DNA of 64,000 nucleotides from Idiomarina loihiensis (GTDB lineage Bacteria; Pseudomonadota; Gammaproteobacteria; Enterobacterales; Alteromonadaceae): assembly GCF_024584785.1 (NCBI RefSeq), contig NZ_CP074112.1:2728001-2792000 (forward strand), read 5' to 3'. The translations under genes were made by a program, and so were the position numbers. The notes under the pieces were generated by a model that searched no databases, was not told where the DNA came from, and worked only from the letters and a program-made list of their open reading frames with translations. Each line of letters opens with the position of its first letter. Position 1 is the stretch's first letter. Below are positions 2,311 to 30,447 of the stretch, piece after piece.

Positions 2311-3826
2311 TGTTCACAGTCCTCAAACCCAGCTAGCGGATGGATTAAATTATTTTGCCGCGCTAGATTTAGGCTCGAATAGCTTTCATCTGGTGACCAC
2401 TCGGGTTATCGATCAGCATGTGCAGCCGCTGCTTAAGTTCAAGCAAAAGGTTCGTTTAGCAAGTGGCCTGAGCAAAACCAATAAGCTCAGTGAAGAGGCA
2501 ATACAGCGAGGTTTGGCAGCGTTACAGTTATGTGCCCAGCGCTTACAAGGTTTTGCTACCGAGCAAGTGTATGTGGTGGCAACTCACACGTTGCGTGAAG
2601 CCAAGAATGCCGATGTCTTTCTGGCGCGGGCGGCAGAAATTTTCCCATTCCCTATTCATATTATTTCGGGCCATGAAGAAGCTCGGCTGATTTATCGTGG
2701 GGTAGCGCAAACCAGCTCTTACCAAGGGCGCCGGCTGGTGATTGATATCGGTGGCGGCAGTACTGAAATCATTGCTGGAGAAGAGTTTGAGCCGAAAATA
2801 CTAGCCTCTCGGTCAATGGGGTGCGTGAGCTTTACCGAGCGTTTCTTTAAAGATGGCAAGCTCAGCGAAAAGCGATTTAAAAAGGCTTTGATTGCGGCGC
2901 GTAGCGAGCTTGAGCCGGTGGCGGCGGGCTTACGCAAGTTCAATGCGGTTGAAGTGATCGGCACCTCTGGCACCATCAAGGCTATTGCGCAATGGGTGCA
3001 GCTACGCGATCAAAGCGCTCCGGATGTGATTACCCGTACCGCCCTGCAGCGCTGTGTGGAGCAGTTATTAACCCATACCAATATCAGTAGTTTTAACGAA
3101 GCGGCAATCGATGCAGATCGGCATGGGGTGATAGCAGCGGGGTTAGCGGTGCTGGTAGCCGTGATGGATGAGTTGGAGCTAACAAGCTTAACCTGCCACG
3201 ATGCAGCCTTACGCGAGGGAGTGTTATACGAGCTGGCGGAACGGGTGATTGGTCATCGTGATGTGCGGCAGCGCACCATTGATGGTATGGCAGCGCGCTA
3301 CCAAGTGGACGAATTACAGGCCCAGCGAGTAGCTGAAACCGCGGTTTATTTATTGCGCCAAGTGGCGAAGCCATGGCAGTTGCAACAACCAGCTTGGCGA
3401 CAACGGTTGCAATGGGCGGCGCGCGTGCATGAAGTGGGCTTACAAATTAATGCTAGCAGTTTACAAAGCCACTCAGGCTACATCATTGAGCATGCGGATA
3501 TGCCGGGTTTTAGCAAAGAAGAACAAGCCTTTTTGGCTGCCTTGGTACGAAACTACCGGAAGAAGCTGCAATTAGAGCGTTTACCGCAACTGTATCTTTT
3601 TGAGCAGCGTGATTTGTGGCGCATGATCGTGCTACTGCGACTAGCTGTGTTGTTTAATACGGACCGCCAGTCGTCGTTATTGTTGAAGAAAATTCAGGTG
3701 CGCCAAGATACTTTGTTGCTTACTCTAACCAAAGAGGGTAGTGCTAATCCGATGCTGCTTAACGACTTGGCGTTAGAGGCTAAGCAGCAGGCAAAATTAG
3801 GGATTAATCTGCGCGTGCACGGCTAG
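2303..3826 (+). CDS. ppx: Exopolyphosphatase (Ppx/GppA family)
   Basis: The protein removes terminal phosphate from polyphosphate, the reverse direction to its operon partner Ppk. Length is 507 residues, as in E. coli Ppx. The actin-like ATPase fold is shown by LDLGSNSFHLV near residue 21 (phosphate 1 loop) and VIDIGGGSTEII near residue 146 (phosphate 2 loop). The C-terminal third is the helical HD-like domain found in long Ppx/GppA proteins. GppA (pppGpp phosphatase) is the alternative, but the ppk-ppx operon order and length favour Ppx. The start codon lies inside the ppk 3' end. It ends five bases from the convergent upp stop, with no terminator between them. Confidence 0.92.
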   Translation: MTDVHSPQTQLADGLNYFAALDLGSNSFHLVTTRVIDQHVQPLLKFKQKVRLASGLSKTNKLSEEAIQRGLAALQLCAQRLQGFATEQVYVVATHTLREAKNADVFLARAAEIFPFPIHIISGHEEARLIYRGVAQTSSYQGRRLVIDIGGGSTEIIAGEEFEPKILASRSMGCVSFTERFFKDGKLSEKRFKKALIAARSELEPVAAGLRKFNAVEVIGTSGTIKAIAQWVQLRDQSAPDVITRTALQRCVEQLLTHTNISSFNEAAIDADRHGVIAAGLAVLVAVMDELELTSLTCHDAALREGVLYELAERVIGHRDVRQRTIDGMAARYQVDELQAQRVAETAVYLLRQVAKPWQLQQPAWRQRLQWAARVHEVGLQINASSLQSHSGYIIEHADMPGFSKEEQAFLAALVRNYRKKLQLERLPQLYLFEQRDLWRMIVLLRLAVLFNTDRQSSLLLKKIQVRQDTLLLTLTKEGSANPMLLNDLALEAKQQAKLGINLRVHG

Positions 3827-3831
3827 CTGAC

Positions 3832-4461
3832 TTAGCGGGTGCCAAATATCTTATCGCCAGCATCGCCTAAGCCAGGAATGATGTAGCCATGTTCGTTCAA
3901 ATGAGAATCGAGTGCAGCCGTATAAATGTGCACATCTGGGTGCGCTGCTAGCACTTTCTCCACGCCTTCTGGGGCGGCGACTAGCACCAGCACTCGAATA
4001 CTTTCGCAACCATGTTGTTTCAGCATGTTCAAGGTGGCAATCATACTGCCGCCGGTGGCCAGCATGGGGTCGATAACAAGAGCAATACGCTGATCAATGT
4101 CACCCACAAACTTTTCGAAATAGGGCACTGGCTCGAGGGTTTCTTCGTTACGATATAGTCCAACCACGCTTACTTTAGCGCTTGGAACCAGTCCTAACAC
4201 TCCATCAAGCATACCGATACCAGCACGTAGAATAGGCACCACGGTCACTTTTTTGCCTTTAATTTGTTGCACCTCAATGGTGTCGCCGCTCCAACTTGTA
4301 ATGGCGTGAGGTTCTAATTCAAAATCACTGGTAGCTTCGTAGGTGAGCAAATTACCTAACTCGTTGGAAAGTTCACGGAAGCTTTTGGTAGAAATACCAG
4401 CTTCACGCATAAGGCCCAGTTTGTGCTGTACTAACGGATGATTGATCACATGTAATGGCAT
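3832..4461 (-). CDS. upp: Uracil phosphoribosyltransferase
   Basis: Upp converts uracil and PRPP to UMP in pyrimidine salvage. It has 209 residues, the usual size. The PRPP-binding loop is seen as [12 protein letters not shown] (about residues 129-140), preceded by the family motif [14 protein letters not shown] (75-88). The C-terminal [12 protein letters not shown] uracil-binding segment is complete. The gene stands alone, convergent with ppx; no uraA-type permease follows it. A near-perfect -10 hexamer lies 33 bases upstream of the start. Confidence 0.97.
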
Positions 4462-4493
4462 AATGCGTTCTCTTGCGGCGATGAATTGTTTTC

Positions 4494-4499
4494 ATTATA
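4494..4499 (-). promoter_or_regulatory. -10 element of the upp promoter
   Basis: On the minus strand this reads TATAAT, the consensus sigma-70 -10 hexamer, 33 bases before the upp start. No good -35 hexamer is seen 16-18 bases upstream, only an A-rich run, so the promoter may depend on other contacts or be weak. Confidence 0.5.
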
Positions 4500-4575
4500 G
4501 GCGTATAAGTGTAATAATTTTTTGCTTGGAAGCCTATAAAAAGTAATTTTTCTGGAAAGTTAAAGGAGTGGTACG

Positions 4576-5034
4576 ATGGCAGGCTATTGGCAACGCGTTG
4601 CTGCTGTGGCTATGATTTTGGGGTGGAGCATGGTGAGCGCAGGGTGTGCTCAAACCGAAACCGTAGCAGCACCGGTTGCGGAATCAGCGTTACCTGCTAA
4701 GTTTCTAACAGACCCAGAATTATTCGCGCCAGGGGCGAAGGTTTTTAAGTACCGCTGTGCGGCTTGCCACTCCATGGATGCTACTAAAAGTCAGTTTTTT
4801 GGTCCTCATTTAGATGGCTTAATTCAGCGTAAAATAGCCAGCACGCCGGGCTATACCTTTACGGAAGAGGTGCAGCAATTGTCGACAGTTTGGACAACGC
4901 CGGTACTGCTGGAATGGTTAGCACGACCACAACAGATGGTGGCTAATATGTGTATGCCTTTTACGGGCTTACCGAAACAAGCGGACCGCGAAGCTTTATT
5001 GGCGTATATTTATCAAGCATCTGAGGCTAAATAA
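4576..5034 (+). CDS. Class I cytochrome c lipoprotein
   Basis: This is a small monoheme cytochrome c of 152 residues. The start is preceded by AAGGAG. The N-terminus is a lipoprotein signal with the lipobox VSAGC (lipid-bearing C24). The heme site is C61-A-A-C64-H65, and NMCMPFTG (M125 or M127) offers the methionine ligand near the C-terminus. The overall layout resembles cytochrome c-550/c2-type electron carriers tethered to a membrane facing the periplasm. Its redox partner is not evident from the neighbours (upp and a diguanylate cyclase), although two further cytochromes lie 5 kb downstream. Confidence 0.85.
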   Translation: MAGYWQRVAAVAMILGWSMVSAGCAQTETVAAPVAESALPAKFLTDPELFAPGAKVFKYRCAACHSMDATKSQFFGPHLDGLIQRKIASTPGYTFTEEVQQLSTVWTTPVLLEWLARPQQMVANMCMPFTGLPKQADREALLAYIYQASEAK

Positions 5035-5094
5035 GTTCATTTGAGCAGCTGGTCTTGCCGGTTGTCGTAAACAATAATAAAAAGATGGTAAAGG

Positions 5095-6924
5095 ATGACA
5101 ACAATAGCGCATTGCCGGAGCACCTCTCGGTGTGGTCGGTTTCAAACCATGGTCTGTGCCGCGGCCGTTTTTTTAGGTAAATTAATCGGTTGGTTGGCAC
5201 TGGCCGTGTTGCCCATGTTACTGTTTGCCGCCACGGCCACGGCCACCGCTGCTGGGCAGGTTCAACCTGAGCCCACCATAGAAGCAGCAAGTCCGCCGTT
5301 AGTTAAGTTACCCGAGACTATCAAGCAGCCGTTGGCACTGGATCGTTTCACCATCAGTTATTGGGTGGATAGCAGCGGTCAAGCCAGTTTTGCTGAGGCC
5401 CGTGAGCAAAGCTACAACAACTCACCCAATCGCGTTAGTCTTGGTACGAGTGCTAAATCAACCTGGGTAAGGTTTCAGGTGGTTAACCCTGCAAGTGCCG
5501 AGCGCGACGTGTTTTTGCAATTTCCTCATGCTTATCACAATAAATCTTTAGGCTTTTATGAGACCGATGGCAAACGTTTATTGCGCAAGGCCGTGATTGA
5601 TTTAAATGCGCCTGAGGATAATCCCTATCTCTATAAAGGGGCGGGGGTTTTCTCTTTTCAGCTAGCCCCAGGCGAGCAGAAAACCCTGTATGTGCATAGC
5701 GTGTCTTATTCTCACCAATGGTTTGAGTTGCAGTTACTGGATGCGTTTCATAGTAAACAAGCGTTGGTTAGCAGTTATACCGATAGCGCGCTGATTGTGG
5801 GTATTCTGATTGCACTGGTGATCTACAACTTGTTGTTGTATTTCTTTGCCAGCAAACGAGAAAACATTTTTTACTCGTTGTATTTGGTGTCAGCAGCGAT
5901 TTGGATTGCGTTGTCGTACGGGCTCTTGTCTGGGGTGTTTGAAGTGTACGGCGACACGGCGTTGCAATTCCATACCAGCCTGATGGCGTTTCCGATTTTT
6001 CTGATATTGTTTATGACAGAAATTTTTAAAACGAAACTCCATCACCCCACTGAGCATAAGTTCTTGCAAGCCATGCTGGCGCTGTTAGTGGTGGCATTTG
6101 TTTGGTCGCTGTTCGATATTCAGGCGGCATTGCAGCCGGCCAGTAGTTTAGCGGCACTGATGATGGTGGTGACCCTGTCGGTGGGTATTTCGTTGTGGTT
6201 AAAAGGCGAAGTGCTGGCGCGATATTTTCTTATTGGACACGGCTTTTTTGTGTTCTTTAACGCTTTGGCGGTGCTCTACTACAAAGGCATGCTCGGCTTT
6301 CATTATGTAACCAGCCACGGTGTTGGTATTGGCATTATGCTTGAGGCGCTGATGTTGGCCTTTATCATTGCTTATCGGATGAAGCTGTTAGAAGACATGA
6401 AGGCGGTGCAAGAAGAGCTGAAATTACAAGCAGCCACGGATCCGTTAACGCGTTTGTACAATCGGCGCTTCTTTTATGCAGAGGCTGACTACCTATTGCA
6501 ACGGGCACAAAGCGAGCATTATCCGGTGTCTATTTTGACGTTAGATATTGACCGTTTTAAGCAAGTTAACGATACCTTTGGGCATGCGATTGGCGACCGG
6601 ATTTTGCAAGAGCTGGCGGATATTTTAAAAGGCAGCGTGCGCGAGTCCGATATAGTGGCACGGTTTGGCGGTGAAGAATTCGTCATCTTGTTGAATAAAT
6701 GTGATTTTAGGGCAGCGTCTAAGCTGGCTGAACAAATCCGTGTTGCAGTCACCAAGCATGCCATTGAGTTAAGTGCCAGTGAGACCATGAGCTTTACGAT
6801 AAGCATCGGATTAACTGAGGTTTTATTAGGCAAAGAGCAAATTGATGATGCTATTCATCGGGCTGATTTAGCGCTTTATAGCGCTAAAAAAGCAGGCCGC
6901 AATCGAGTAGAGGCGCGGGTTTGA
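5095..6924 (+). CDS. Membrane diguanylate cyclase, 7TMR-DISM plus GGDEF
   Basis: The 609-residue protein has the layout of 7TMR-DISM receptors: a hydrophobic signal segment (about 28-50), a periplasmic 7TMR-DISMED2-like sensor (about 80-215), seven membrane helices (about 230-430), and a cytoplasmic GGDEF domain (about 447-609). The active site is GGEEF at 525-529, with the metal-binding DIDRFKQVND (484-493). An RESD motif at 516-519, five residues before GGEEF, is a product-inhibition I-site, so it is predicted to make c-di-GMP with feedback control. DISMED2 domains are thought to bind carbohydrate-like ligands. The start is uncertain: ATG 5095 has AAAGG directly against it, and ATG 5149 is an alternative that leaves a cleaner signal. 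Confidence 0.9.
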   Translation: MTTIAHCRSTSRCGRFQTMVCAAAVFLGKLIGWLALAVLPMLLFAATATATAAGQVQPEPTIEAASPPLVKLPETIKQPLALDRFTISYWVDSSGQASFAEAREQSYNNSPNRVSLGTSAKSTWVRFQVVNPASAERDVFLQFPHAYHNKSLGFYETDGKRLLRKAVIDLNAPEDNPYLYKGAGVFSFQLAPGEQKTLYVHSVSYSHQWFELQLLDAFHSKQALVSSYTDSALIVGILIALVIYNLLLYFFASKRENIFYSLYLVSAAIWIALSYGLLSGVFEVYGDTALQFHTSLMAFPIFLILFMTEIFKTKLHHPTEHKFLQAMLALLVVAFVWSLFDIQAALQPASSLAALMMVVTLSVGISLWLKGEVLARYFLIGHGFFVFFNALAVLYYKGMLGFHYVTSHGVGIGIMLEALMLAFIIAYRMKLLEDMKAVQEELKLQAATDPLTRLYNRRFFYAEADYLLQRAQSEHYPVSILTLDIDRFKQVNDTFGHAIGDRILQELADILKGSVRESDIVARFGGEEFVILLNKCDFRAASKLAEQIRVAVTKHAIELSASETMSFTISIGLTEVLLGKEQIDDAIHRADLALYSAKKAGRNRVEARV

Positions 6925-7009
6925 GCCTACCCATAAGGCAAAATCGATTAATCTAATCTGTTTTTACCATATCTCACTTTCTGAAATTGTAACTATAGTT
7001 ATATCCATT

Positions 7010-7051
7010 CTGTGCGACCTAGTTAGCAGTTGTTGGCTAGGCCGCGCACAG
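7010..7051 (+). other. Long imperfect hairpin in the katG leader
   Basis: CTGTGCG (7010-7016) pairs with CGCACAG (7045-7051), and CCTAG (7018-7022) pairs with CTAGG (7037-7041), separated by a small 1/3-base internal loop; the apical loop is 14 bases. No T-run follows, so it is not a simple terminator. It lies 37 bases before the katG start and would sit in the 5' untranslated RNA or at an operator. Confidence 0.5.
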
Positions 7052-7063
7052 TTGTGTACTTAA

Positions 7064-9313
<2,250 letters not shown>

Positions 9314-18312: not shown

Positions 18313-18972
18313 ATGAATTTTGTACGCCAAACAATGACATCTTTACTTGAGCAACTACGCGCAGCCACTGCTGCACTTCATAGCCACTTAGACCGACACA
18401 CCATGATGTCGGAGTTGATGAGTGCGGATTTAACCGAAGCGCGCTATCGGCAGATACTGCAGCACATGTACCCTGCTCATCAGCAGTTAGAAGCGGCGGT
18501 GCAGCAGGGCGTGCAGGAGTTGCGATTGGGCTATCCCTTGCAAGCCCGATTGGCTTGGCTTGATGATGATTTAATAAAACTGCAATGTGACATTCCTACA
18601 ATGGCGGCCGTGAAGAATATGACGAACCAGGCTGAGCTCGCGCATTCAGAGACTATGGCACCCGTAGCCATCGGCTCGCTGCCAGCATTGGTTGGTTGGC
18701 TGTATGTTCTAGAAGGATCTCGTCTAGGGGCGGCAGTGATTGCCAAGCGTCTGCAACGCCAATTACCTAACTCACCTTGTAGTTTTTTTTCGCGTTCGAT
18801 TGCGCCGCAGGCGTGGTCGCAATTTTTGCTGTTTGCACAACAGGTTGCTGCTGCTGATTCCGATGATGTGATTGATGCAGCGCAACAAGCATTTACCAGC
18901 TATATTGAGCAGCTAAAGGCGCCATTAGGCGCACCCTTAACATCAGCCAAGAGCGCCGAGTATGCAAACTAG
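18313..18972 (+). CDS. bphO: Biliverdin-producing heme oxygenase, BphO-like
   Basis: The 219-residue helical protein opens heme to biliverdin. RAATAALHSHL supplies the proximal heme histidine (likely H23), and GWLYVLEGSRLGAAVI is the distal-helix signature of bacterial BphO-type oxygenases. The start is not secure: ATG 18313 has AGG directly against it, and ATG 18334 (MTSLLEQLRAAT) fits the family N-terminus better but lacks a ribosome site. The downstream GGDEF-EAL gene begins 32 bases after the stop, so the two are likely co-transcribed. The bacteriophytochrome gene 10 kb away is the obvious user of biliverdin. Iron recovery from heme is the alternative role, but no heme uptake genes are nearby. 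Confidence 0.88.
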   Translation: MNFVRQTMTSLLEQLRAATAALHSHLDRHTMMSELMSADLTEARYRQILQHMYPAHQQLEAAVQQGVQELRLGYPLQARLAWLDDDLIKLQCDIPTMAAVKNMTNQAELAHSETMAPVAIGSLPALVGWLYVLEGSRLGAAVIAKRLQRQLPNSPCSFFSRSIAPQAWSQFLLFAQQVAAADSDDVIDAAQQAFTSYIEQLKAPLGAPLTSAKSAEYAN

Positions 18973-19004
18973 CTTGAACCTTACTAAATAAGCCATTGAC
19001 TGTA

Positions 19005-21662
19005 ATGATAGCCATTGAAAACAACCTATTATTGTTCATTTTTATCTTACTCATAGTCACTATGGCTACGGGTGCTGGCGCCTTGTGGTTTTGGTTGCGA
19101 GCACGTTATCAACAACGGTTGTTGAAGCAGTGGGTACAGGCCAACTACGATACTTTGAGCAGTATTGCTACGGACCAACCGCTGGAGCAAAAACTATCGC
19201 GAATTTGTGCTCTGCTAGAATCACAAATTCCGTTTAGTTTCGCTTCGGTGATGGTAGCAAATGAGCAGCGCACCAGTTTAAGTGCGGTGGCGACTGCGCG
19301 GCTGCCTAAATCTTTGTTTGATGGCTTGCAAATGTTACCTATTGCTAACGGTGTGGGCGCCTGTGGCACGGCCGCCGCGCAAGGGCGTCCGGTGGTGGTT
19401 GCCAAGATGCATGAAGACACTCGATTTGAAGCCTTTATGCCATTAATAAAGCAGTTTAAGCTGAGCTCAGCTTGGTCCTTTCCAGTGTATACCGCGCAGC
19501 AGCAGCTCTTAGGTACTCTTGCGGTCTACTCCGAGCGCGAGCGGTTACCTAATCAGCAACAACGCGCCATCATTGAACGTAGCTGTGAGCTATTAGCCCT
19601 TGTGATGCAACAGCATCATGAACGCTTGGCGCGCGAACGCAGCGAGCAGCGGGCGAATTCATTGTTTGCCTACAACCCAGAGGCAGTGTTTACGTTAGAT
19701 TTAGAGGGGCGTTTTACTAGTTTAAACGCCGCTGGTGAAGCCTTGGTGCAAGCTTCTGAGCGCGAAATATTGGGCCAGCGCTACGATGTGGTGGTACTTG
19801 AAGAAGACAAACAACGTACTCAGGAACATTTTCTCGCAGCTGTGGCGGGGCAGCCGCAGCGCTATGAGATCCGCATTTTAAATAGTGCGGGCCAGCTACG
19901 TACCCTCAATATTACCAACATGCCGATGAAGGTGAATCATCAGGTTGTGGGCGTGCATGGGATTGCAAAAGATGTAACCCAGCAACGCGACGATGAAGAG
20001 CGCTTGGTGTTGTTCCGCCGTTGCTTAGAATCAAGCACTGATGGCATTGTGATCAGTGATGCACGTAAACCGGGTTATCCCTTAATCTATGTCAATCCAG
20101 CGTTTACTCAAATTACCGGTTATTCAGAAGCAGAAATGCTAGGGGATAATTGCGATAAACTGCGCGGTCCGGATACGGATCTTGCTGCTATAGCCGAGAT
20201 AGATGCTGCTATAGCTCAGCAAATTGAAGCTCGAACGGTGATTAAAAATTATCGTAAAGACGGCAGTATGTTTTGGAATGAATTACTGTTATCACCGGTA
20301 CGCGATGACCAAGGTGAACTAACCCACTGGGTTGGAGTGCAAACAGATATTACCGAGCGGGTAGAGCGGGAACGTAGCCTCGCTTTTCATGCCAGCCATG
20401 ATCCTTTAACAGGATTACCCAACCGCAGCATGTTAGAACAGCGTTTACAGCAAGCGCTAGCCGACGACTCCGCAGCTCTAGAATCAGTCTTTGTTTTATT
20501 TATTGATTTGGATGGCTTTAAGCCTATCAATGACAGCTTGGGTCATGAGTTTGGTGATGAAATTTTAGTGCAGACAGGGCAGCGTCTGCGTGCCGTATTA
20601 CCAGCAGAAGACTTGCTGGCGCGCTTTGGTGGTGATGAATTTGTTGCTGTGGTTCAGAGCCAAACCTCAATTGCCGCAGTAACCCAGCTGGCGCAACGAT
20701 TGCTCGATCAGTTCCTCCATCCCTTTGTGTTTGAACAAGCAGAAGTATCGTTATCGGCGGCGATTGGGATTGCTACTAACGACAGCAGTGTGCGTTATCC
20801 CAATCAGCTGATTCAACACGCCGATGTTGCTATGTATGAAGTTAAGCGTCGCGGTAGTAACGGTTTGCAGTGGTTCTCGCCAGTGTTTGATGAAGGTGCA
20901 CAATTACAAATTCAGCGCCGTTCGCAGTTACAAGAAGCCATTGCGCAGCAACAATTTGAGTTGTTCTACCAGCCGATTGTAAGTGCGCAGGGGGCGATCC
21001 ATGGGGTGGAAGCCTTGATTCGCTGGAAGCACCCAGAACAGGGATTTATCTCGCCAGCAGAGTTTATTCCATTAGCGGAAAAGACCGGCCAAATCATCGC
21101 AATTAGTGAGTGGGTACTTAATCAGGCTTGTATGGATAGCCAAACCTTACGTGAGGCTGGAGTGCCCCATGTGGCGGTGAACTTCTCGCCGATGCAGTTT
21201 TATCGTGATGATTTTGTTGAGTCGGTAGAGCGAATCATTAAGCCGTATAACTTACGTCCCGGGCAACTGGTGGCAGAAATTACAGAAAATGTCTTAATGC
21301 GCGATAGCAGTCATATCTTTGAGATTTTGCAGCAACTACGCGAGTTGGGGCTGGACATAGCGTTAGATGATTTTGGTACCGGCTATGCAAGCTTGAGCTA
21401 TTTAACTCGGATACCAGCGCAACGTTTAAAAATAGACCGCAGCTTTATTGACAATATTCATCAGAATACAGCCAATGCGGCTATCACCCGAGGCATCTTA
21501 ACCATGGCCGCGGAGCTTGGCATAGCGACCGTAGCCGAGGGCGTAGAAACCGAGGCGGAGCAAGCTTATTTACAGCGCTACGCCTGTGATTACATGCAAG
21601 GTTACTTATTCTGCAAACCACTGCCGCTGCCAGAATTACTGGCTTGGCTAAACCATAAATAA
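19005..21662 (+). CDS. GAF-PAS-LOV-like-GGDEF-EAL c-di-GMP enzyme
   Basis: Using ATG 19005 gives 885 residues: an N-terminal membrane helix (about 7-30), a GAF domain (57-207), a PAS (219-325), a LOV-like PAS (333-452), GGDEF (about 460-620) and EAL (about 635-885). The LOV-like part reads GDNCDKLRGPDTD, with cysteine C383 where LOV domains form the flavin adduct. FWN and HWVGVQ, which hold flavin in LOV proteins, are kept, but the Arg and Gln of the NCRFLQ motif are Asp and Arg here. GGDEF is intact (542-546) with no RxxD I-site. EAL (669-671), ALDDFGTGYASL and EGVETEAEQ look complete. Both making and degrading c-di-GMP are possible. The 3' end overlaps dgt by 15 bases tail to tail. Confidence 0.9.
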   Translation: MIAIENNLLLFIFILLIVTMATGAGALWFWLRARYQQRLLKQWVQANYDTLSSIATDQPLEQKLSRICALLESQIPFSFASVMVANEQRTSLSAVATARLPKSLFDGLQMLPIANGVGACGTAAAQGRPVVVAKMHEDTRFEAFMPLIKQFKLSSAWSFPVYTAQQQLLGTLAVYSERERLPNQQQRAIIERSCELLALVMQQHHERLARERSEQRANSLFAYNPEAVFTLDLEGRFTSLNAAGEALVQASEREILGQRYDVVVLEEDKQRTQEHFLAAVAGQPQRYEIRILNSAGQLRTLNITNMPMKVNHQVVGVHGIAKDVTQQRDDEERLVLFRRCLESSTDGIVISDARKPGYPLIYVNPAFTQITGYSEAEMLGDNCDKLRGPDTDLAAIAEIDAAIAQQIEARTVIKNYRKDGSMFWNELLLSPVRDDQGELTHWVGVQTDITERVERERSLAFHASHDPLTGLPNRSMLEQRLQQALADDSAALESVFVLFIDLDGFKPINDSLGHEFGDEILVQTGQRLRAVLPAEDLLARFGGDEFVAVVQSQTSIAAVTQLAQRLLDQFLHPFVFEQAEVSLSAAIGIATNDSSVRYPNQLIQHADVAMYEVKRRGSNGLQWFSPVFDEGAQLQIQRRSQLQEAIAQQQFELFYQPIVSAQGAIHGVEALIRWKHPEQGFISPAEFIPLAEKTGQIIAISEWVLNQACMDSQTLREAGVPHVAVNFSPMQFYRDDFVESVERIIKPYNLRPGQLVAEITENVLMRDSSHIFEILQQLRELGLDIALDDFGTGYASLSYLTRIPAQRLKIDRSFIDNIHQNTANAAITRGILTMAAELGIATVAEGVETEAEQAYLQRYACDYMQGYLFCKPLPLPELLAWLNHK

Positions 21663-23665: not shown

Positions 23666-23759
23666 GTACGCAATTACGTCCCGCTGCTTTGGCGTTATAC
23701 ATAGCTTGGTCGGCTTGGCGCATGAGGTCTTGCCAGTCGCGCGGCAGTGCTGACTTATC
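23646..23759 (-). pseudogene. Relic of a GGDEF-domain gene (last 37 codons)
   Basis: Read on the minus strand from 23759, the frame gives LMRQADQAMYNAKAAGRN and then stops at 23646. This is the conserved closing helix of a diguanylate cyclase domain. No start, catalytic motif or upstream part remains: the frame begins right at the yajQ stop. The methyltransferase 5' end overlaps it in another frame. It is what is left after most of a gene was deleted between yajQ and the methyltransferase. Confidence 0.75.
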
Positions 23760-24243
23760 AGTCACGGAAGTTTTCATATTGCAAGGGTTGCTCTATGTCT
23801 GATTGACGTAGCAAGGCAATGGCTTCTTGTAAGTCATCGCGTTTTTTACCAGTAACTCGCACTTTGTCCCCCTGAATAGAACTTTGTACTTTGATTTTGC
23901 TGGCTTTAATTAATTGCGTGATTTTTTTAGCTAAAGGCTGATCAATGCCTTGTTTAAAGTTGATGGTTAAGCTAAAAGTTTTACCACTGTGAGTAGGTTC
24001 ATCAGGTATGTCACAGCCTGCTAAACTAATGTTACGTTTAGCGCAATGATTATTAAAAATGTCCTGAATTTGGCGTACCTGAAAATCGGACTCTGAAGTT
24101 AAGGTAACGTTTAACTCTTGCTGCTCGATGGTGGCTAGAACCCCACGAAAATCAAAGCGTGTAGTGAGTTCACGGGTGGCATTATCCACGGCGTTCTTCA
24201 GTTCAACTTTGTCTATTTCAGACACAACATCAAAACTTGGCAT
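23758..24243 (-). CDS. yajQ: YajQ family nucleotide-binding protein
   Basis: The 161-residue protein is a full-length YajQ: MPSFDVVSEIDKVELKNAVDNATRE at the N-terminus is almost invariant in the family, followed by TRFDFRGV and the C-terminal KVRVTGKKRDDLQEAI. It has two ferredoxin-like folds. YajQ homologues have been reported to bind c-di-GMP (Xanthomonas) and RNA or tRNA. Here it is divergent from the CheB-CheR-GGDEF-EAL gene with 171 bases between starts, which makes a c-di-GMP effector role worth testing. TTGACA at 24354-24359 on the minus strand is a possible -35. Confidence 0.95.
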   Translation of the reverse strand: MPSFDVVSEIDKVELKNAVDNATRELTTRFDFRGVLATIEQQELNVTLTSESDFQVRQIQDIFNNHCAKRNISLAGCDIPDEPTHSGKTFSLTINFKQGIDQPLAKKITQLIKASKIKVQSSIQGDKVRVTGKKRDDLQEAIALLRQSDIEQPLQYENFRD

Positions 24244-24414: not shown

Positions 24415-27400
24415 ATGGCAGCACATGGAAAGCCCATGATTGTGATAGGTATTGGCGCCTCGGCCGGTGGATTAGAAGCCGTGAGTGCGCTCATTCATGA
24501 TTTGGACGCTAAACTGCCTGCGTGTTATGTGGTGTTGCAGCACTTATCGCCAACCCACAAAAGCATGATGCCCGAAATTTTGGCACGTGGAACCAATCTT
24601 TCTGTGATGTCCTTGCAGCGCTCAACCAAGCCCCGTAGTGGCACCATCTATGTGGTGCCACCTAATAGTAATGCTATCTACCAAGACGGTCGCATCGAGC
24701 TGACGCCGGTTAAACCTGAAATCTCTCCCAAACCCTCGGTGAATATGTTTTTTAAAACCCTTGCTGAAGAAATGGGAGACCGTGCCATTGGGGTGGTGCT
24801 GTCGGGGACAGGTAGCGATGGTACCTTAGGCCTTCGAGCGATTCAGGCTGAAGGCGGGGTGACCATTGTGCAAGACCCTGCTACGGCCAAATATGCGGGT
24901 ATGCCACAGTCGGCGATTGACGCGGGCTGTGCTGATTTTGTCTTAACGCCAGCAGCGATAGCCGCACAAATGCCAGAGTTTATTCGCATGCATTTGAGCG
25001 ATGACAATAGTATTTCGGAGCAGGTTCTAGAGCGGGTTGTCGAGCTTTTAAAAGAACGCAAACAACTCGACTTTAGTGGTTATAAGACGGGTACTATGGC
25101 GCGCCGCATTCAACGTCGAATTGTAGCGACGGGTGCGGGGCGGGTTAAAGATTACTTACACTTACTGCAAGAGCATGCCACCGAATTAGATGAATTAGCG
25201 CGGGATATTCTGATTTCGGTGACCTCATTTTTTCGCGATAAAGAGGCTTTTGAAAGCTTCAATGGCTTGTTAAAACAGCATTTGCAGCAGCATCAACAAC
25301 AAGAATTGCGGATTTGGATAGCTGGCTGTGCCACAGGTGAAGAGGCATATAGTGTGGCTATGCTAGCCGCCGAGGCGCTGCAGCATCTTGACCAGCCACC
25401 CGGGGTGGTCATTTTTGCCACGGATCTCGATGAAGAAGCCCTGCGTATTGCCCGCCGTGGCGTGTATCCAACTGGAGCTCTAGCCGATATTCCACCACGT
25501 TTGCTGGAGCGTTACTTCAAGCCCTACAACGATCAGTTTGAGGTCAGTAAAAAGCTGCGTGATATGGTGGTGTTCGCTAAACACAATTTAGTATCGGATC
25601 CGCCTTTTATGCGGGTCGATTTTATTACCTGTCGCAATGTGCTGATCTATTTCTCGCCACAACTACAACGCAAGGTATTACAACGCTTTCATTTTGCTTT
25701 AGCTAACGACGGTGTGTTGTTTTTGGGGCGTTCTGAAAGTATCAGTCACGCTGAAGAATTCTTCAGTGTCAGCCATCGCCGCGATCGGCTCTACAGCAAA
25801 TCGCCCGAGGTGACGGTTACGCCCGAGCTCACCCAAGCTCCTACCAGCGCCAAACCAAACTCCAGTAATCTGATGAAGGTTGATGCTGAGCAGTTGTTAC
25901 ACCATCTGCATCATTGGTTGCGCAATGTCCCCGCCGCCGCAGTGGTGTGCCAAGCCGATGGCATGGTGCTGCGGGCATTGGGGCGGGTCGACCGATTTTT
26001 TAAGCAGGGGCCTGCGGCTGAGCGCTTAACCGATTTGCCACTAGCCGCAGTAGAATTGCAGCAGCCGTTATCAGATGTGGGCTTGAACGCGATTGCTAAG
26101 GCGTTGCAGGGGCTGGCGCTGAAAGACATTATTCATCCCCGCTTTAGAACTGAACTTGGTAATTTGCTTAGTAACTACGATTGGACTGCCGAGCGTATGT
26201 TGGGGCAGACTCACCATGTGGCGGGAGAGCACTGGCAATTGATGGTGATGCCGCTAGCGCACGCTCAAACCAAGTTATTTATGGTCACTGTGTTGCCAGC
26301 CTTTATGCCCAATGCGCGTGAGCAAGCCCAAGAGTTAACCCGTAACTCAGCCGCAACCCAGCAGCTGTTGCAAGACGAATTGTTTGCGACCCGTGAGCAT
26401 CTTCAAGCCATGGTAGAAGAGCTGGCTTCTTCTAATGAAGAAATGCAAAGCTTAAACGAAGAAATGCAAGCTTCTAACGAAGAGATGCAGGCCACCAACG
26501 AAGAGCTCGAGGCCGCCAACGAAGAGTTGCAAGCTACCAATGAAGAGCTGATTAGTCTTAACCAAGAACTGAACGTAAAAACAGCTGAGCTGATTGCTCT
26601 AAACGATGAATATGCTCATGTTTATGATGCTTTGGAATTTCCACTGTTGGTGTTTGATACCGATGGCAAACTACTGCGTTATAACGCTGCAGCACAGCGC
26701 CGACTAGCTTTGCGTGGAAATATGATAGGCCGTGATTTTGCTAAGCTAAAGCTGCCTCATTTTATTCAGAACGACGCCATTAAGTTGTTTGAGCAAGCCT
26801 ACTCTGAGGGTGATACGGCCCAGCATGTGGTGCGAGGCCAGCAAGAGGTGGTACAAGTGACAGTCACGCCAGGGCTTAATCGACGTGGTGACGTGTATGC
26901 GGTGCTAGTGACCTTGATTGATGTCACCGAAATCACTCGCACTCAGGAGCAGTTACAGGCATCGCAACATCAGTTAGCGCAGATCATGGAAAATACCACC
27001 ATGATATTGGCGTTGAAATCCCTTAACGGCGAGTACTCACTGATTAACCCAAGCTTTGAAAGCATGTTTAACCTAACCGCAGACGACGTATTAGGACGAA
27101 CAGACTTTGATTTGTTTCCTCACGATTTTGCCGCCTCTATGCTTGAGTGTGATTTGCGTACGGTGCGCTCGTTGAAGTCGGTTACTCATGAACATCACTT
27201 AAACAATCAGCAAGGTCAGCAGGTGTATCGCACCGTGCATCAAGCGTTGTTGAACGAGCAGGGCAAAGCCTATGCCATTTTAATCGAGGCTGAGGATATT
27301 ACGCTGCGCAAGAAAGCGGAGCAGCAATTACAAATCGCCGCACGAGTTTACGAACAAGCGGGCGAAGCGATTGTAGTGATGGATCAACAGGGGCTGATTC

Positions 27401-29001
27401 AGACCGTTAACTCTGCGTTTGAGCATTTAACTCAATTAGTTGAAGCTGATGCGCTAGAGAGTTGTTTTTGGAACTTGGTGTATTGCGAACGTGATGCCGA
27501 AAAGGCAGTACAAAGGATAACCACGGAACTCAGCCAAACCGGCTTTTGGCAAGGTGAAGTCTCATTAATGCAGCAGGGTGATGAGGCAGCTAGCAGTGTT
27601 GCGGTGTGGTTAACCATCAATAGAATCCAGTCACCAGAATTAGACAGATCTGCTTACGTTGCAGTGTTTGCTGATATTTCTAACTTAAAAGAGTCGCAGC
27701 GCAAAGCTGAGTATTTAGCCACCCACGATAGTCTGACCGCCTTACCTAATCGAACCTTGTTACAAGACCGCTTGGGTCATGCTATTGATGTGGCCAAGCG
27801 AGATAAATCAGCAGTGGCGTTATTGTTCATCGATCTGGATAACTTCAAGAACCTCAACGATACGCTCGGCCATGATGCCGGTGATGAGTTATTAATTCAG
27901 GCTGCAGAGCGCTTAAAGGCAGTTGTGCGAGAAGTGGATACAGTCGCTCGTTTAGGCGGTGACGAATTTACCATTGTGCTAGGTGATGCCACTTTGGGTG
28001 CGGCCGAACGCGTAGCGCGGCAAGCCTTGGAGGTATTAAGCCAGCCGTTTGTGATTCAACGGCATCGCCATTACATGAGCGGCAGTATTGGCATCGCTCT
28101 CTATCCGGATGATGGCGTGGATACCACCACCTTGATCAAGGCAGCCGATACTGCGATGTACCGTGCCAAGGATAACGGTCGAAATCGCTACGAATTGTAT
28201 AAAGAAGAGTTGCAATCCCAGCTGTTACGCCACGCCGATGTTGAGAACAAATTACGCGAAGCCTTACGTCGTGGTGATTTGTATCTGGCCTATCAGCCTA
28301 AATTTAAAGTGGCTGAGCCTAATCTTATTGTCGGCGCTGAAGCTTTATTGCGCTGGCATCATGACGAGTTAGGACAAGTTAGCCCAGCTGATTTTATTGC
28401 CGTAGCGGAACAAAGTAATTTAATTGTCGATGTGGATTTTTATGTAGCCAGCGAGCTGATTCGACAACTAGCCAAATGGCAGCAGCAAGGTATTGATTAT
28501 CCGGCGATGGCCTTAAATGTGTCGCCCAAGAGCTTTCAGCATGAGGGTTATGTTGACCTGATTTTACGTTTGTTGGAGCAATATAAAGTGCACTCGCTGA
28601 TGATTCAGATTGAGTTAACCGAGCGTACTTTGGTATCGCAACGGAATTCTGAGTTAGGCAATATTGAACGCTTACGCAATGCGGGTATTCAGCTCAGTAT
28701 TGATGATTTTGGCACGGGTTATTCGTCGATGAGTTATTTGAAGCGGCTGCCCCTCGCCGAGTTGAAAATCGATAAGAGCTTTGTGGATGGGTTAGCGCAA
28801 GAAGCCAACGATGAAGCTATTGCTAAGGCTATTTTAGCGATGGCCCAGGCCTTAGATATTCGTACCGTAGCTGAAGGTGTTGAAACTAAAGAGCAATTAG
28901 ATTGGTTAGCGACTTATGGTTGTGACTATGCTCAAGGCTATTTATTGGCAAAGCCAATGAGTGCGGATGACTTTGTGAAGCTATTGAAAGGAAGCAAATA
29001 A
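24415..29001 (+). CDS. CheB-CheR-coiled coil-PAS-GGDEF-EAL hub protein
   Basis: The 1528-residue cytoplasmic protein combines chemotaxis-type and c-di-GMP enzymes. The CheB methylesterase domain (about 5-190) keeps S16 (GASAGG), H43 and D135. The CheR methyltransferase domain (about 200-460) has TSFFRD and the SAM loop IAGCATGEEAYS. A weak PAS-like region follows, then a long heptad coiled coil (about 640-735; NEEMQ/NEELQ repeats), and three PAS domains (about 735-845, 850-965, 970-1095). GGDEF is intact (1181-1185) with an REVD I-site at 1172-1175. EAL (1309-1311), IDDFGTGYSSM and EGVETKEQ are complete. No receiver domain is present. The phytochrome gene begins at the next base after its stop, so the two are one operon and probably one pathway. 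Confidence 0.95.
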   Translation: MAAHGKPMIVIGIGASAGGLEAVSALIHDLDAKLPACYVVLQHLSPTHKSMMPEILARGTNLSVMSLQRSTKPRSGTIYVVPPNSNAIYQDGRIELTPVKPEISPKPSVNMFFKTLAEEMGDRAIGVVLSGTGSDGTLGLRAIQAEGGVTIVQDPATAKYAGMPQSAIDAGCADFVLTPAAIAAQMPEFIRMHLSDDNSISEQVLERVVELLKERKQLDFSGYKTGTMARRIQRRIVATGAGRVKDYLHLLQEHATELDELARDILISVTSFFRDKEAFESFNGLLKQHLQQHQQQELRIWIAGCATGEEAYSVAMLAAEALQHLDQPPGVVIFATDLDEEALRIARRGVYPTGALADIPPRLLERYFKPYNDQFEVSKKLRDMVVFAKHNLVSDPPFMRVDFITCRNVLIYFSPQLQRKVLQRFHFALANDGVLFLGRSESISHAEEFFSVSHRRDRLYSKSPEVTVTPELTQAPTSAKPNSSNLMKVDAEQLLHHLHHWLRNVPAAAVVCQADGMVLRALGRVDRFFKQGPAAERLTDLPLAAVELQQPLSDVGLNAIAKALQGLALKDIIHPRFRTELGNLLSNYDWTAERMLGQTHHVAGEHWQLMVMPLAHAQTKLFMVTVLPAFMPNAREQAQELTRNSAATQQLLQDELFATREHLQAMVEELASSNEEMQSLNEEMQASNEEMQATNEELEAANEELQATNEELISLNQELNVKTAELIALNDEYAHVYDALEFPLLVFDTDGKLLRYNAAAQRRLALRGNMIGRDFAKLKLPHFIQNDAIKLFEQAYSEGDTAQHVVRGQQEVVQVTVTPGLNRRGDVYAVLVTLIDVTEITRTQEQLQASQHQLAQIMENTTMILALKSLNGEYSLINPSFESMFNLTADDVLGRTDFDLFPHDFAASMLECDLRTVRSLKSVTHEHHLNNQQGQQVYRTVHQALLNEQGKAYAILIEAEDITLRKKAEQQLQIAARVYEQAGEAIVVMDQQGLIQTVNSAFEHLTQLVEADALESCFWNLVYCERDAEKAVQRITTELSQTGFWQGEVSLMQQGDEAASSVAVWLTINRIQSPELDRSAYVAVFADISNLKESQRKAEYLATHDSLTALPNRTLLQDRLGHAIDVAKRDKSAVALLFIDLDNFKNLNDTLGHDAGDELLIQAAERLKAVVREVDTVARLGGDEFTIVLGDATLGAAERVARQALEVLSQPFVIQRHRHYMSGSIGIALYPDDGVDTTTLIKAADTAMYRAKDNGRNRYELYKEELQSQLLRHADVENKLREALRRGDLYLAYQPKFKVAEPNLIVGAEALLRWHHDELGQVSPADFIAVAEQSNLIVDVDFYVASELIRQLAKWQQQGIDYPAMALNVSPKSFQHEGYVDLILRLLEQYKVHSLMIQIELTERTLVSQRNSELGNIERLRNAGIQLSIDDFGTGYSSMSYLKRLPLAELKIDKSFVDGLAQEANDEAIAKAILAMAQALDIRTVAEGVETKEQLDWLATYGCDYAQGYLLAKPMSADDFVKLLKGSK

Positions 29002-30447
29002 GTGGTAACTAGCGGTGGATTTATTCAAGCCTGTGAGCAAGAACAACTGCACTTGAGTGGCGCCATTCAAAGTTATGGTGCCTTGCTGATTGCGAACAAA
29101 AAGACTATTCAGATCACTCATTTATCAACCAATATTAGCGATTTTATTAGTGGTTTTGATGAGCATTCGGTGGGCCATTTGGTACCAGAAATTTTAGAAG
29201 GGCTGATCCAAAATTTTAACGGCACAACGCAGTTTTATGAGAATGAGCTACAGGGGATTAACAGCCGTTTAGACGTTATTTTGAATGCAGTTGATGAGCA
29301 ACATATGGCCATCGAATTGGTCCCTAGTTTGCCGCACGTGCGCTTGCAGTCAGCAATCAAAGTGTTGCCACCTAGTATAGATAGTGATGCTGTGCTCAAT
29401 TCAGTTCGCCAGCAGTTGGTTGATTATATCGCCGAACTGACTGGTTTTGAGCGGGTGATGTATTACGAGTTTCTACCTTCGGGCGATGGTGAAGTCATTG
29501 CCGAGTGTTGCCAACGTGAGGGCATGGGGAGTTACCTCGGCTTAAGGTTTCCGGCCAGTGATATCCCGCAGATTGCTCGGAATTTGTATTTGAAAACACC
29601 GTGGCGGGCAATTTACGACGCCAGTGCGCCAACCGCTGCCGTGATGGGGCATTTCACCCCAGACCTTACTCACAGCCATTTGCGCAGTGTCTCGCCGATT
29701 CATATTCAATACATGCGCAATATGGGCGTCATGAGCTCCGTGAGCTGGTCCATTATTGGGCGTAACGAGCTATCTGCATTACTTTCTATTCATGATGCTG
29801 AAGCTAAGGCAATACCTTTACCTGTGATGCAACATTTATGGGAAGTGATCGCCCAATTTAATCTTATGTTGCGCGAGTTTGCTGCGCGTAAACGCGTGAA
29901 TCTACATGCCCGCATGCAAGAGCAGTTGAATAAACTCCAAGTGCGAATCAATAGTGCGGAGAGCTTCAGCGATGTTTGGCCGCAGCTAAGTGCGTGGTTA
30001 ATGAATGAGTTTAAGCTACAAGGGGTGCTGTTGGTGCATGCTAACGAGCAATTCACAGCAGGTACTCTTAAACTAGAACCTCATGCTTTCAAACAGGTGC
30101 AAGCGAAGCTTTTAAACAGTAAAGAAATGCTGTGGCAAACGGATAACTTGCTCGGTGCGTTGCCAGCTATTGAATTAAGCGAAGTGGCTGGCGTTGCCGC
30201 GCTTAATGCGTTACCACAGAGCCAGCAGGGGTTTCAATTATACCTGTTGCGGGGTTGTGAAACCTATCAGATTTCGTGGGGTGGGCGGCCTGATAAGCCG
30301 CACGAGCAACAAGGTGAGCTGGCTATTTCACCTCGCCGATCCTTTGAGAAGTGGATAGAAACAGGGTTATCTTTCAGTATGCCTTGGAGTGAGGATACTC
30401 GACTAAAGCTGATGAAAGTGCGGTTACTGCTACAATTACTCAAATAA
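29002..30447 (+). CDS. bphP: Bacteriophytochrome photosensory module without output domain
   Basis: The 481 residues are a complete PAS-GAF-PHY core. C11 is placed to bind biliverdin, as in other bacteriophytochromes. The GAF domain shows RFPASDIPQIARNLY (D187-I-P) and SPIHIQYMRNMGVMSS (H234). The PHY tongue has WGGRPDKP and PRRSF (444-448). It then ends: no histidine kinase, GGDEF or other effector follows. It starts with GTG directly behind the hub gene stop, with AAGGAAG inside the hub 3' end. The simplest reading is a red/far-red sensor that acts on the hub protein by contact. A mutation that truncated a longer gene is unlikely, because the next bases are a MetJ operator and metX. Confidence 0.92.
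   Translation: MVTSGGFIQACEQEQLHLSGAIQSYGALLIANKKTIQITHLSTNISDFISGFDEHSVGHLVPEILEGLIQNFNGTTQFYENELQGINSRLDVILNAVDEQHMAIELVPSLPHVRLQSAIKVLPPSIDSDAVLNSVRQQLVDYIAELTGFERVMYYEFLPSGDGEVIAECCQREGMGSYLGLRFPASDIPQIARNLYLKTPWRAIYDASAPTAAVMGHFTPDLTHSHLRSVSPIHIQYMRNMGVMSSVSWSIIGRNELSALLSIHDAEAKAIPLPVMQHLWEVIAQFNLMLREFAARKRVNLHARMQEQLNKLQVRINSAESFSDVWPQLSAWLMNEFKLQGVLLVHANEQFTAGTLKLEPHAFKQVQAKLLNSKEMLWQTDNLLGALPAIELSEVAGVAALNALPQSQQGFQLYLLRGCETYQISWGGRPDKPHEQQGELAISPRRSFEKWIETGLSFSMPWSEDTRLKLMKVRLLLQLLK

Follow-up and report, generated by a model that had tools for sequence, protein, structure and literature searches.

Directly downstream of a gene that joins CheB, CheR, PAS, GGDEF and EAL domains in one protein (hereafter the hub), the genome of Idiomarina loihiensis encodes a bacteriophytochrome photosensory module ending without an output domain, and the same pairing is widespread in other genera. 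Both genes lie on the forward strand of the window analyzed here, a stretch of 64,000 nucleotides (nt) covering positions 2,728,001 to 2,792,000 of contig NZ_CP074112.1 (assembly GCF_024584785.1). This conserved split phytochrome system is real and, as far as open-licence literature goes, undescribed; how it operates we infer from sequence. We consider it probable that hub and phytochrome constitute one split device linking light to cyclic di-GMP (c-di-GMP), in which the photosensory subunit would act on the hub in trans. An earlier note on this DNA, made by a model from the letters alone, had pointed to a complete PAS-GAF-PHY sensor lacking an output, whose GTG start codon directly follows the stop codon of a 1528-residue hub with intact catalytic motifs. 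All these features were found as described, on the basis of open reading frames (ORFs) and Pfam domains, and the placement of the sensor directly after the hub gene, as a separate chain, proved conserved in gamma- and betaproteobacteria.

The distribution of the pair was established by scanning 84,980 species genomes with six phytochromes, the best 80 loci being retained and their neighbours analyzed, and by searching a family sample of 395 genomes and a class sample of 369. The resulting set of 44 stand-alone phytochromes spans Pseudidiomarina, Alteromonas/Salinimonas, Halomonadaceae, Oceanospirillaceae, Betaproteobacteria, Methylomonas and Chromatiales. It includes 14 family-sample frames of 495-523 amino acids (aa), two of them identical to loci L089 and L091 and counted once, and three class-sample frames; four Pseudidiomarina loci from the species-genome scan belong to genomes already counted. 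A one-chain CheB-CheR-PAS-GGDEF-EAL hub lies directly upstream, within about 70 nt, of 37 of the 44. One further phytochrome (L078) is preceded by the GGDEF-EAL part of a hub and then the contig end, the missing half being located at the end of another contig, and two others (L085 from Rhodoferax and L190) have a two-gene hub with adjacent CheB-CheR and GGDEF-EAL genes. Two loci at contig edges are undecidable (L080 and L086), the L080 genome containing a hub that runs off a contig end. Hub adjacency was observed in 40 of the 42 decidable cases; the earlier note had held that stand-alone phytochromes beside unrelated genes in relatives would refute its proposal, a situation confined to the other two. 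At the loci where the junction was measured, the phytochrome begins -8 to +66 nt from the hub stop, with an outlier of -92 in L081 that reflects an early start choice. Counted by sample, all 20 family frames of 481-523 aa qualify as paired (a 147-residue stub in genome G017 being excluded), as do four of five short frames of the class sample, counting the window's own and one split hub. In the neighbour analysis fused phytochromes, unlike the stand-alone ones, are not beside a hub. Viral contigs scanned with the window phytochrome returned zero matches.

Phylogenies of the two proteins are in keeping with this distribution. In a phytochrome tree of 97 rows, 41 stand-alone proteins form one clade with a support of 100 in the Shimodaira-Hasegawa-like approximate likelihood ratio test (SH-aLRT), and 55 fused phytochromes and L193 fall outside. 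This tree excludes L190, L191 and L192; it counts L078, L080 and L086 among the hub-linked rows, the first two having parts of a hub at contig ends and L086 lying at a contig edge. Locus L193 (7069-9077), which is outside the 44, encodes a 447-residue PadC-like phytochrome and, in a separate gene after it, a GGDEF protein of 204 residues; this is either a different form of split or the result of a frameshift. In the CheB-CheR tree, 40 phytochrome-linked hubs are located on one side of a branch, and none of 22 phytochrome-less CheB-CheR proteins (two from L103, the others from 20 fetched loci) is found among them. Although Alteromonas belongs to the same family, both trees place Pseudidiomarina with Oceanospirillales and Betaproteobacteria instead, as if hub and phytochrome had moved together.

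Within the genus, 26 genomes were examined, that of the host being complete (2.9 Mb). A PHY match is present in eight of them, hub and phytochrome stand side by side in six (the window's counted), and one gene alone was found in none. In G017, a single deletion has removed most of both genes, so that the hub is reduced to its first ~150 residues and the phytochrome to its last ~120 (L045, about 6567-7411); this genome retains a chemotaxis cluster comprising a methyl-accepting chemotaxis protein (MCP), CheW and CheR. G007 encodes, instead of the pair, a single PadC-like PAS-GAF-PHY-GGDEF chain of 690 residues. Ratios of non-synonymous to synonymous substitution rates (dN/dS) of 0.04-0.09, obtained for hub and phytochrome with two own-genus pairs and two methods, place both genes under strong purifying selection in these pairs. 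A pseudogene or decaying sensor is ruled out for the genus by the same values; decay does occur in G017.

Pfam recognized PAS_2 (residues 11-65), GAF (137-267) and PHY (309-465) above cut-off in the window phytochrome, these phytochrome domains only and no BLUF domain, and the best match among solved phytochromes reached E 1.4e-44. Pfam found no domain in the 16 residues between the PHY match and the end of the chain, and it is because of this missing output that the phytochrome is expected to work in trans. Among 41 aligned stand-alone phytochromes, the window's counted, C11 and D187-I188-P189 are invariant; in the tongue motif P444-R445-x-S447-F448, P, R and F are found in 41/41 and serine 447 in 40/41. 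Using residue numbers that we take to denote the bilin pocket of DrBphP, mapped by eye from an alignment, the pocket positions are likewise unchanged in all 41 save that of the D-ring histidine (DrBphP H290). This residue is histidine in 22 and another amino acid in 19, including the aspartate at residue 265 of the window protein (29794-29796), for which a spectral shift is possible. Such substitutions would suit a phytochrome reporting a cue other than light to the hub, namely redox state or the supply of heme or bilin. The bilin cysteine, DIP, the other checked pocket residues and the tongue motif are nevertheless kept in 40 or 41 of the 41 proteins and a heme oxygenase is present, making a non-light sensor very unlikely in our judgement.

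At the junction, an AGGA-like ribosome site precedes the phytochrome GTG, and the hub and phytochrome ORFs of the window are in one frame separated by exactly one TAA. This geometry could betray a former fusion cut by a stop codon and still produced as one chain by read-through. In five same-genus relatives, however, the two ORFs overlap and their frames differ, the overlap being 11-20 nt in four; in G019 it is 11 nt from the ATG start or 41 nt if a TTG is taken. The phase also varies elsewhere, and each gene has its own start codon. Read-through fusion was rejected on account of the differing frames in the five relatives, and we give it next to no credence. The overlaps speak for chains that would be coupled yet separate. 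Scans for promoters and terminators returned fewer sites than shuffled sequences and this result was not used.

The domains of the hub are listed in Table 1 with the other features of the system.

Table 1. Window coordinates of the hub, the phytochrome and associated features
Feature	Position	Strand	Basis
Heme oxygenase, candidate biliverdin source, 5.4 kb from hub	18313..18972	+	Pfam PF01126, E 1.1e-19
Hub, CheB-CheR-(PAS-like)-coil-PAS-PAS-PAS-GGDEF-EAL, 1528 aa, ATG start	24415..29001	+	ORF, Pfam, 35 aligned hubs
Hub CheB methylesterase domain, residues 11-185	24445..24969	+	Pfam PF01339, E 2.6e-53
Hub CheR_N (205-254) and CheR (269-454) methyltransferase	25027..25776	+	Pfam
Hub Glu-rich heptad coil, residues 655-735, candidate methyl-accepting helix	26377..26619	+	Motif search, dN/dS, shuffles
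Hub PAS domains, residues 738-838 and 859-966	26626..27312	+	Pfam
Hub GGDEF, residues 1102-1258, RxxD I-site R1172/D1175	27718..28188	+	Pfam
Hub EAL, residues 1278-1514, key residues intact	28246..28956	+	Pfam
Junction TAA/GTG, hub stop abutting phytochrome start, same frame	28999..29004	+	Sequence
Bacteriophytochrome photosensory module PAS-GAF-PHY, 481 aa, GTG start	29002..30447	+	Pfam, solved-phytochrome matches, tree

Pfam detected no receiver domain before CheB, and a third, weaker PAS match starting near residue 977. Across 35 aligned hubs, the window's included, S16, H43 and D135, which we take to be the catalytic residues of CheB, are unchanged, as are the GGDEF motif and its I-site; the S-adenosylmethionine motif of CheR varies at one T/S position only. 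The eight key EAL residues, presumably catalytic, are all present in 30 of the 35, among them the window hub.

The methylation enzymes of the hub lack the usual partners. The complete host genome contains no MCP (PF00015) and no CheW (PF01584), and its only CheR is that of the hub (CheA was not searched for), under searches for MCP, CheW and CheR whose controls, such as E. coli, were positive. The five other pair-bearing Pseudidiomarina, all drafts, likewise have no MCP and no CheR beyond the hub's. Two of them, G012 and G019, carry CheW relics, one with stops and one short, which suggests that chemotaxis was lost in pair-bearing relatives. The earlier note had envisaged that CheB and CheR might set an adaptation level by methylating a receptor; the missing MCP, CheW and additional CheR rule out MCP-based receptor adaptation in this host. 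Since CheB and CheR are intact in a genome without MCP, and evolve at a dN/dS of 0.02-0.06, their substrate must be something else.

The best candidate resides in the hub itself. Between CheR and the PAS domains runs a coil in which a pair of glutamates recurs at intervals of seven residues, carrying EExxA[S/T] at 682, 689 and 703 and EExxAA at 696. According to the accessible text of PMC1079850, the methylation consensus of MCPs is EExxA[ST] in helices, and three major sites of Tsr are spaced seven residues apart. The dN/dS of the coil, 0.008 and 0.000 in two pairs, is the lowest of the hub parts measured, and composition shuffles produced a relaxed run of four motifs in 0 of 20000 trials and a strict run of two in 1 of 20000. 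Among 1847 ORFs of the fetched loci, two or more heptad-spaced relaxed motifs occur in 58 of 61 ORFs with both CheB and CheR against 3 of 1786 others, although these 61 are not independent cases, the coil being common to such proteins by descent. The strict motif was found in 35 of the 61 and in none of the others. The three exceptions are two MCPs and a histidine kinase whose gene comes right after that of a CheB-CheR lacking the coil. This test has specificity but little sensitivity, as it detects a relaxed run in two of ten MCPs and a strict run in none. The array is missing from the CheB+CheR ORFs of L190, L205 and L210. In L205 (3611-7891), a 673-residue CheB-CheR protein without it is followed by the histidine kinase, which has an EE heptad coil itself, as though the partner had taken over the substrate. 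Taken together, the motifs suggest that the hub may methylate itself on its own Glu-rich coil.

The phytochrome could instead be the methylation substrate, CheR and CheB resetting the sensitivity of the photoreceptor with c-di-GMP controlled by another route. A host devoid of MCP does require some other substrate, and in G563 (L190) the gene immediately before that of the phytochrome encodes a CheB-CheR without the coil. Two heptad-spaced motifs are present in 0 of 41 phytochromes, however, while the hub has an array beside its CheR, and GGDEF-EAL and CheR share one chain; we judge this alternative distinctly unlikely.

In the split light-to-c-di-GMP device that we favour, the phytochrome would bind biliverdin supplied by the heme oxygenase, red/far-red light would change its conformation, and it would act on the hub by direct contact. 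The hub GGDEF domain would then make c-di-GMP and the EAL domain degrade it, CheB and CheR tuning the hub by methylating its own coil. We infer chromophore binding, docking, the direction of control and tuning through the coil alike. A more elaborate proposal, which is possible and which we advance tentatively, treats the pair as a self-contained, adapting c-di-GMP light receptor: the phytochrome would be a detachable input, and the hub CheR and CheB would methylate and demethylate their own coil, resetting the light response of cyclase and phosphodiesterase.

Several observations weigh against reading hub and phytochrome as one device. Adjacency may reflect no more than shared expression. As the phytochromes were gathered by similarity to that of the window, the counts of adjacency do not describe a random sample. 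Support for the clade of phytochrome-linked hubs is moderate: 95 with 38 rows, 95/79 in a careful tree from which L218 is absent and in which L221 was trimmed at wrong domain bounds, and 83 in a quick repeat tree including both. With a threshold of E 1e-80, the class sample yielded 49 CheB-CheR matches, four of them phytochrome-linked; 20 of the other 45 were fetched, and six of these phytochrome-less loci display the same CheB-CheR-GGDEF-EAL order. Because such hubs exist in fetched stretches that contain no phytochrome, the hub order needs no sensor of this kind in general: a stand-alone phytochrome nearly always implies a hub, hub order does not imply a phytochrome. Finally, key EAL residues are altered in five Alteromonas-group hubs, one of the eight in each of L183, L186, L188 and L189, and six in L187 (hub 2378-6910), whose phosphodiesterase is probably dead and whose GGDEF, CheB and CheR are intact. 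Since GGDEF is intact in all 35 hubs and EAL is not uniform, c-di-GMP synthesis would be the firmer output, breakdown being plausible in most hubs.

To these points are added the two stand-alone phytochromes, both from Chromatiaceae (L088, Rhabdochromatium; L093, Thiospirillum), that have no hub within the roughly 8-9 kb fetched on each side. Elsewhere in both genomes, genes for CheB-CheR and for GGDEF-EAL lie near each other, and the encoded CheB-CheR proteins group with two from Rhodoferax (SH-aLRT 100), one of which is encoded beside its phytochrome with the GGDEF-EAL gene in between. This alternative two-gene hub is common to three of the four hosts known without a one-chain hub; in the fourth, G563, CheB-CheR belongs to the main group. 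The Rhodoferax CheB-CheR, which belongs to another clade, also counts against the one-device reading. The two Chromatiaceae cases would agree with a shared operon and nothing further, the phytochrome signalling elsewhere, for example to a GAF-PAS-PAS-GGDEF-EAL protein encoded at 18996-21662 in the window. The gene of this protein begins 23 nt after that of the heme oxygenase, the putative biliverdin-making enzyme. Hub adjacency in 40 of 42 cases argues against such a destination, as does G017, which keeps the heme oxygenase and GAF-PAS-PAS-GGDEF-EAL genes despite having lost hub and phytochrome and thereby points to a role of their own. We consider a mere shared operon unlikely.

Concerning the other neighbours, heme oxygenase matches were obtained in all eight genus genomes with a PHY match and in two others (one below cut-off), and at least 15 of the 44 phytochrome genes adjoin a heme oxygenase gene as detected by two single-sequence models, which are weak. 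A DUF520/YajQ gene at 23758-24243 is the divergent neighbour of the hub; we take YajQ to be a c-di-GMP-binding family. It was discarded as a part of the system: it adjoins all six Pseudidiomarina pairs and the remnant in G017 and was absent from the remaining hub loci searched.

In the phytochrome enzymes of the literature consulted, a helix carries the signal into the fused output domain. Here the chain is cut throughout one clade of many genera, and signal transfer must therefore cross a protein interface; the stand-alone phytochrome would be a natural detached red-light module for c-di-GMP. If the hub does adapt by methylating itself, one chain would hold the whole chemotaxis adaptation loop without a receptor array, CheA or CheW, and CheB-CheR-PAS fusions might generally be cis-methylating signal proteins. 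What these fusions methylate found no answer in the open-licence literature searched, and a host without MCP, CheW or another CheR, in which CheB and CheR are under strong selection, offers a clean place to learn it.

Our searches of the open-licence PMC literature turned up neither an account of an output-less phytochrome partnered by a CheB-CheR-GGDEF-EAL protein nor any report that CheB-CheR fusions methylate themselves. The hub belongs with these fusions, both domains occurring in one chain with intact catalytic residues: CheB-CheR-PAS proteins with histidine kinase or GGDEF-EAL outputs share the same CheB-CheR order, most have a NEEL(Q/E)-type coil after CheR, and none of the 22 phytochrome-less ones in the tree is placed within the phytochrome-linked group. 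With MCP-CheR-CheB chemotaxis the hub coil has in common the EExxA[ST] glutamate consensus (PMC1079850, accessible part); it differs in that methyltransferase, methylesterase and candidate substrate are united in one chain, in a genome without MCP or CheW. In Salmonella, CheR likewise acts on paired acidic residues of a non-MCP protein, PhoP, as the accessible text of PMC8546571 reports; there a response regulator is methylated in trans, and neither a fusion nor light is involved.

The closest phytochrome relatives are PadC and PadC-EAL proteins (IsPadC of Idiomarina sp. A28L, BphG1 of Rhodobacter sphaeroides), in which PAS-GAF-PHY also controls GGDEF or GGDEF-EAL. Following the accessible part of PMC9587094, a coiled-coil linker connects sensor and enzyme within a single chain there; in the window the enzyme gene comes first and a second gene encodes the sensor, and stand-alone phytochromes form a clade separate from the fused ones. 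The same part of that article describes a phytochrome sensory module of Rhodopseudomonas palustris without output domain and mentions neither CheB nor CheR. The earlier note knew of no described system with this arrangement, which holds for phytochromes within the open-licence literature and fails for split photoreceptors at large, control of an EAL protein by a separate BLUF subunit being known. In this system, PapB-PapA of R. palustris, a blue-light sensor with BLUF and FAD regulates a solo EAL protein through complex formation, with no phytochrome, GGDEF, CheB or CheR in the available portion of PMC8846402. In the window pair as in PapB-PapA, a short photoreceptor without output domain is a subunit of its own, encoded beside the gene of an enzyme.

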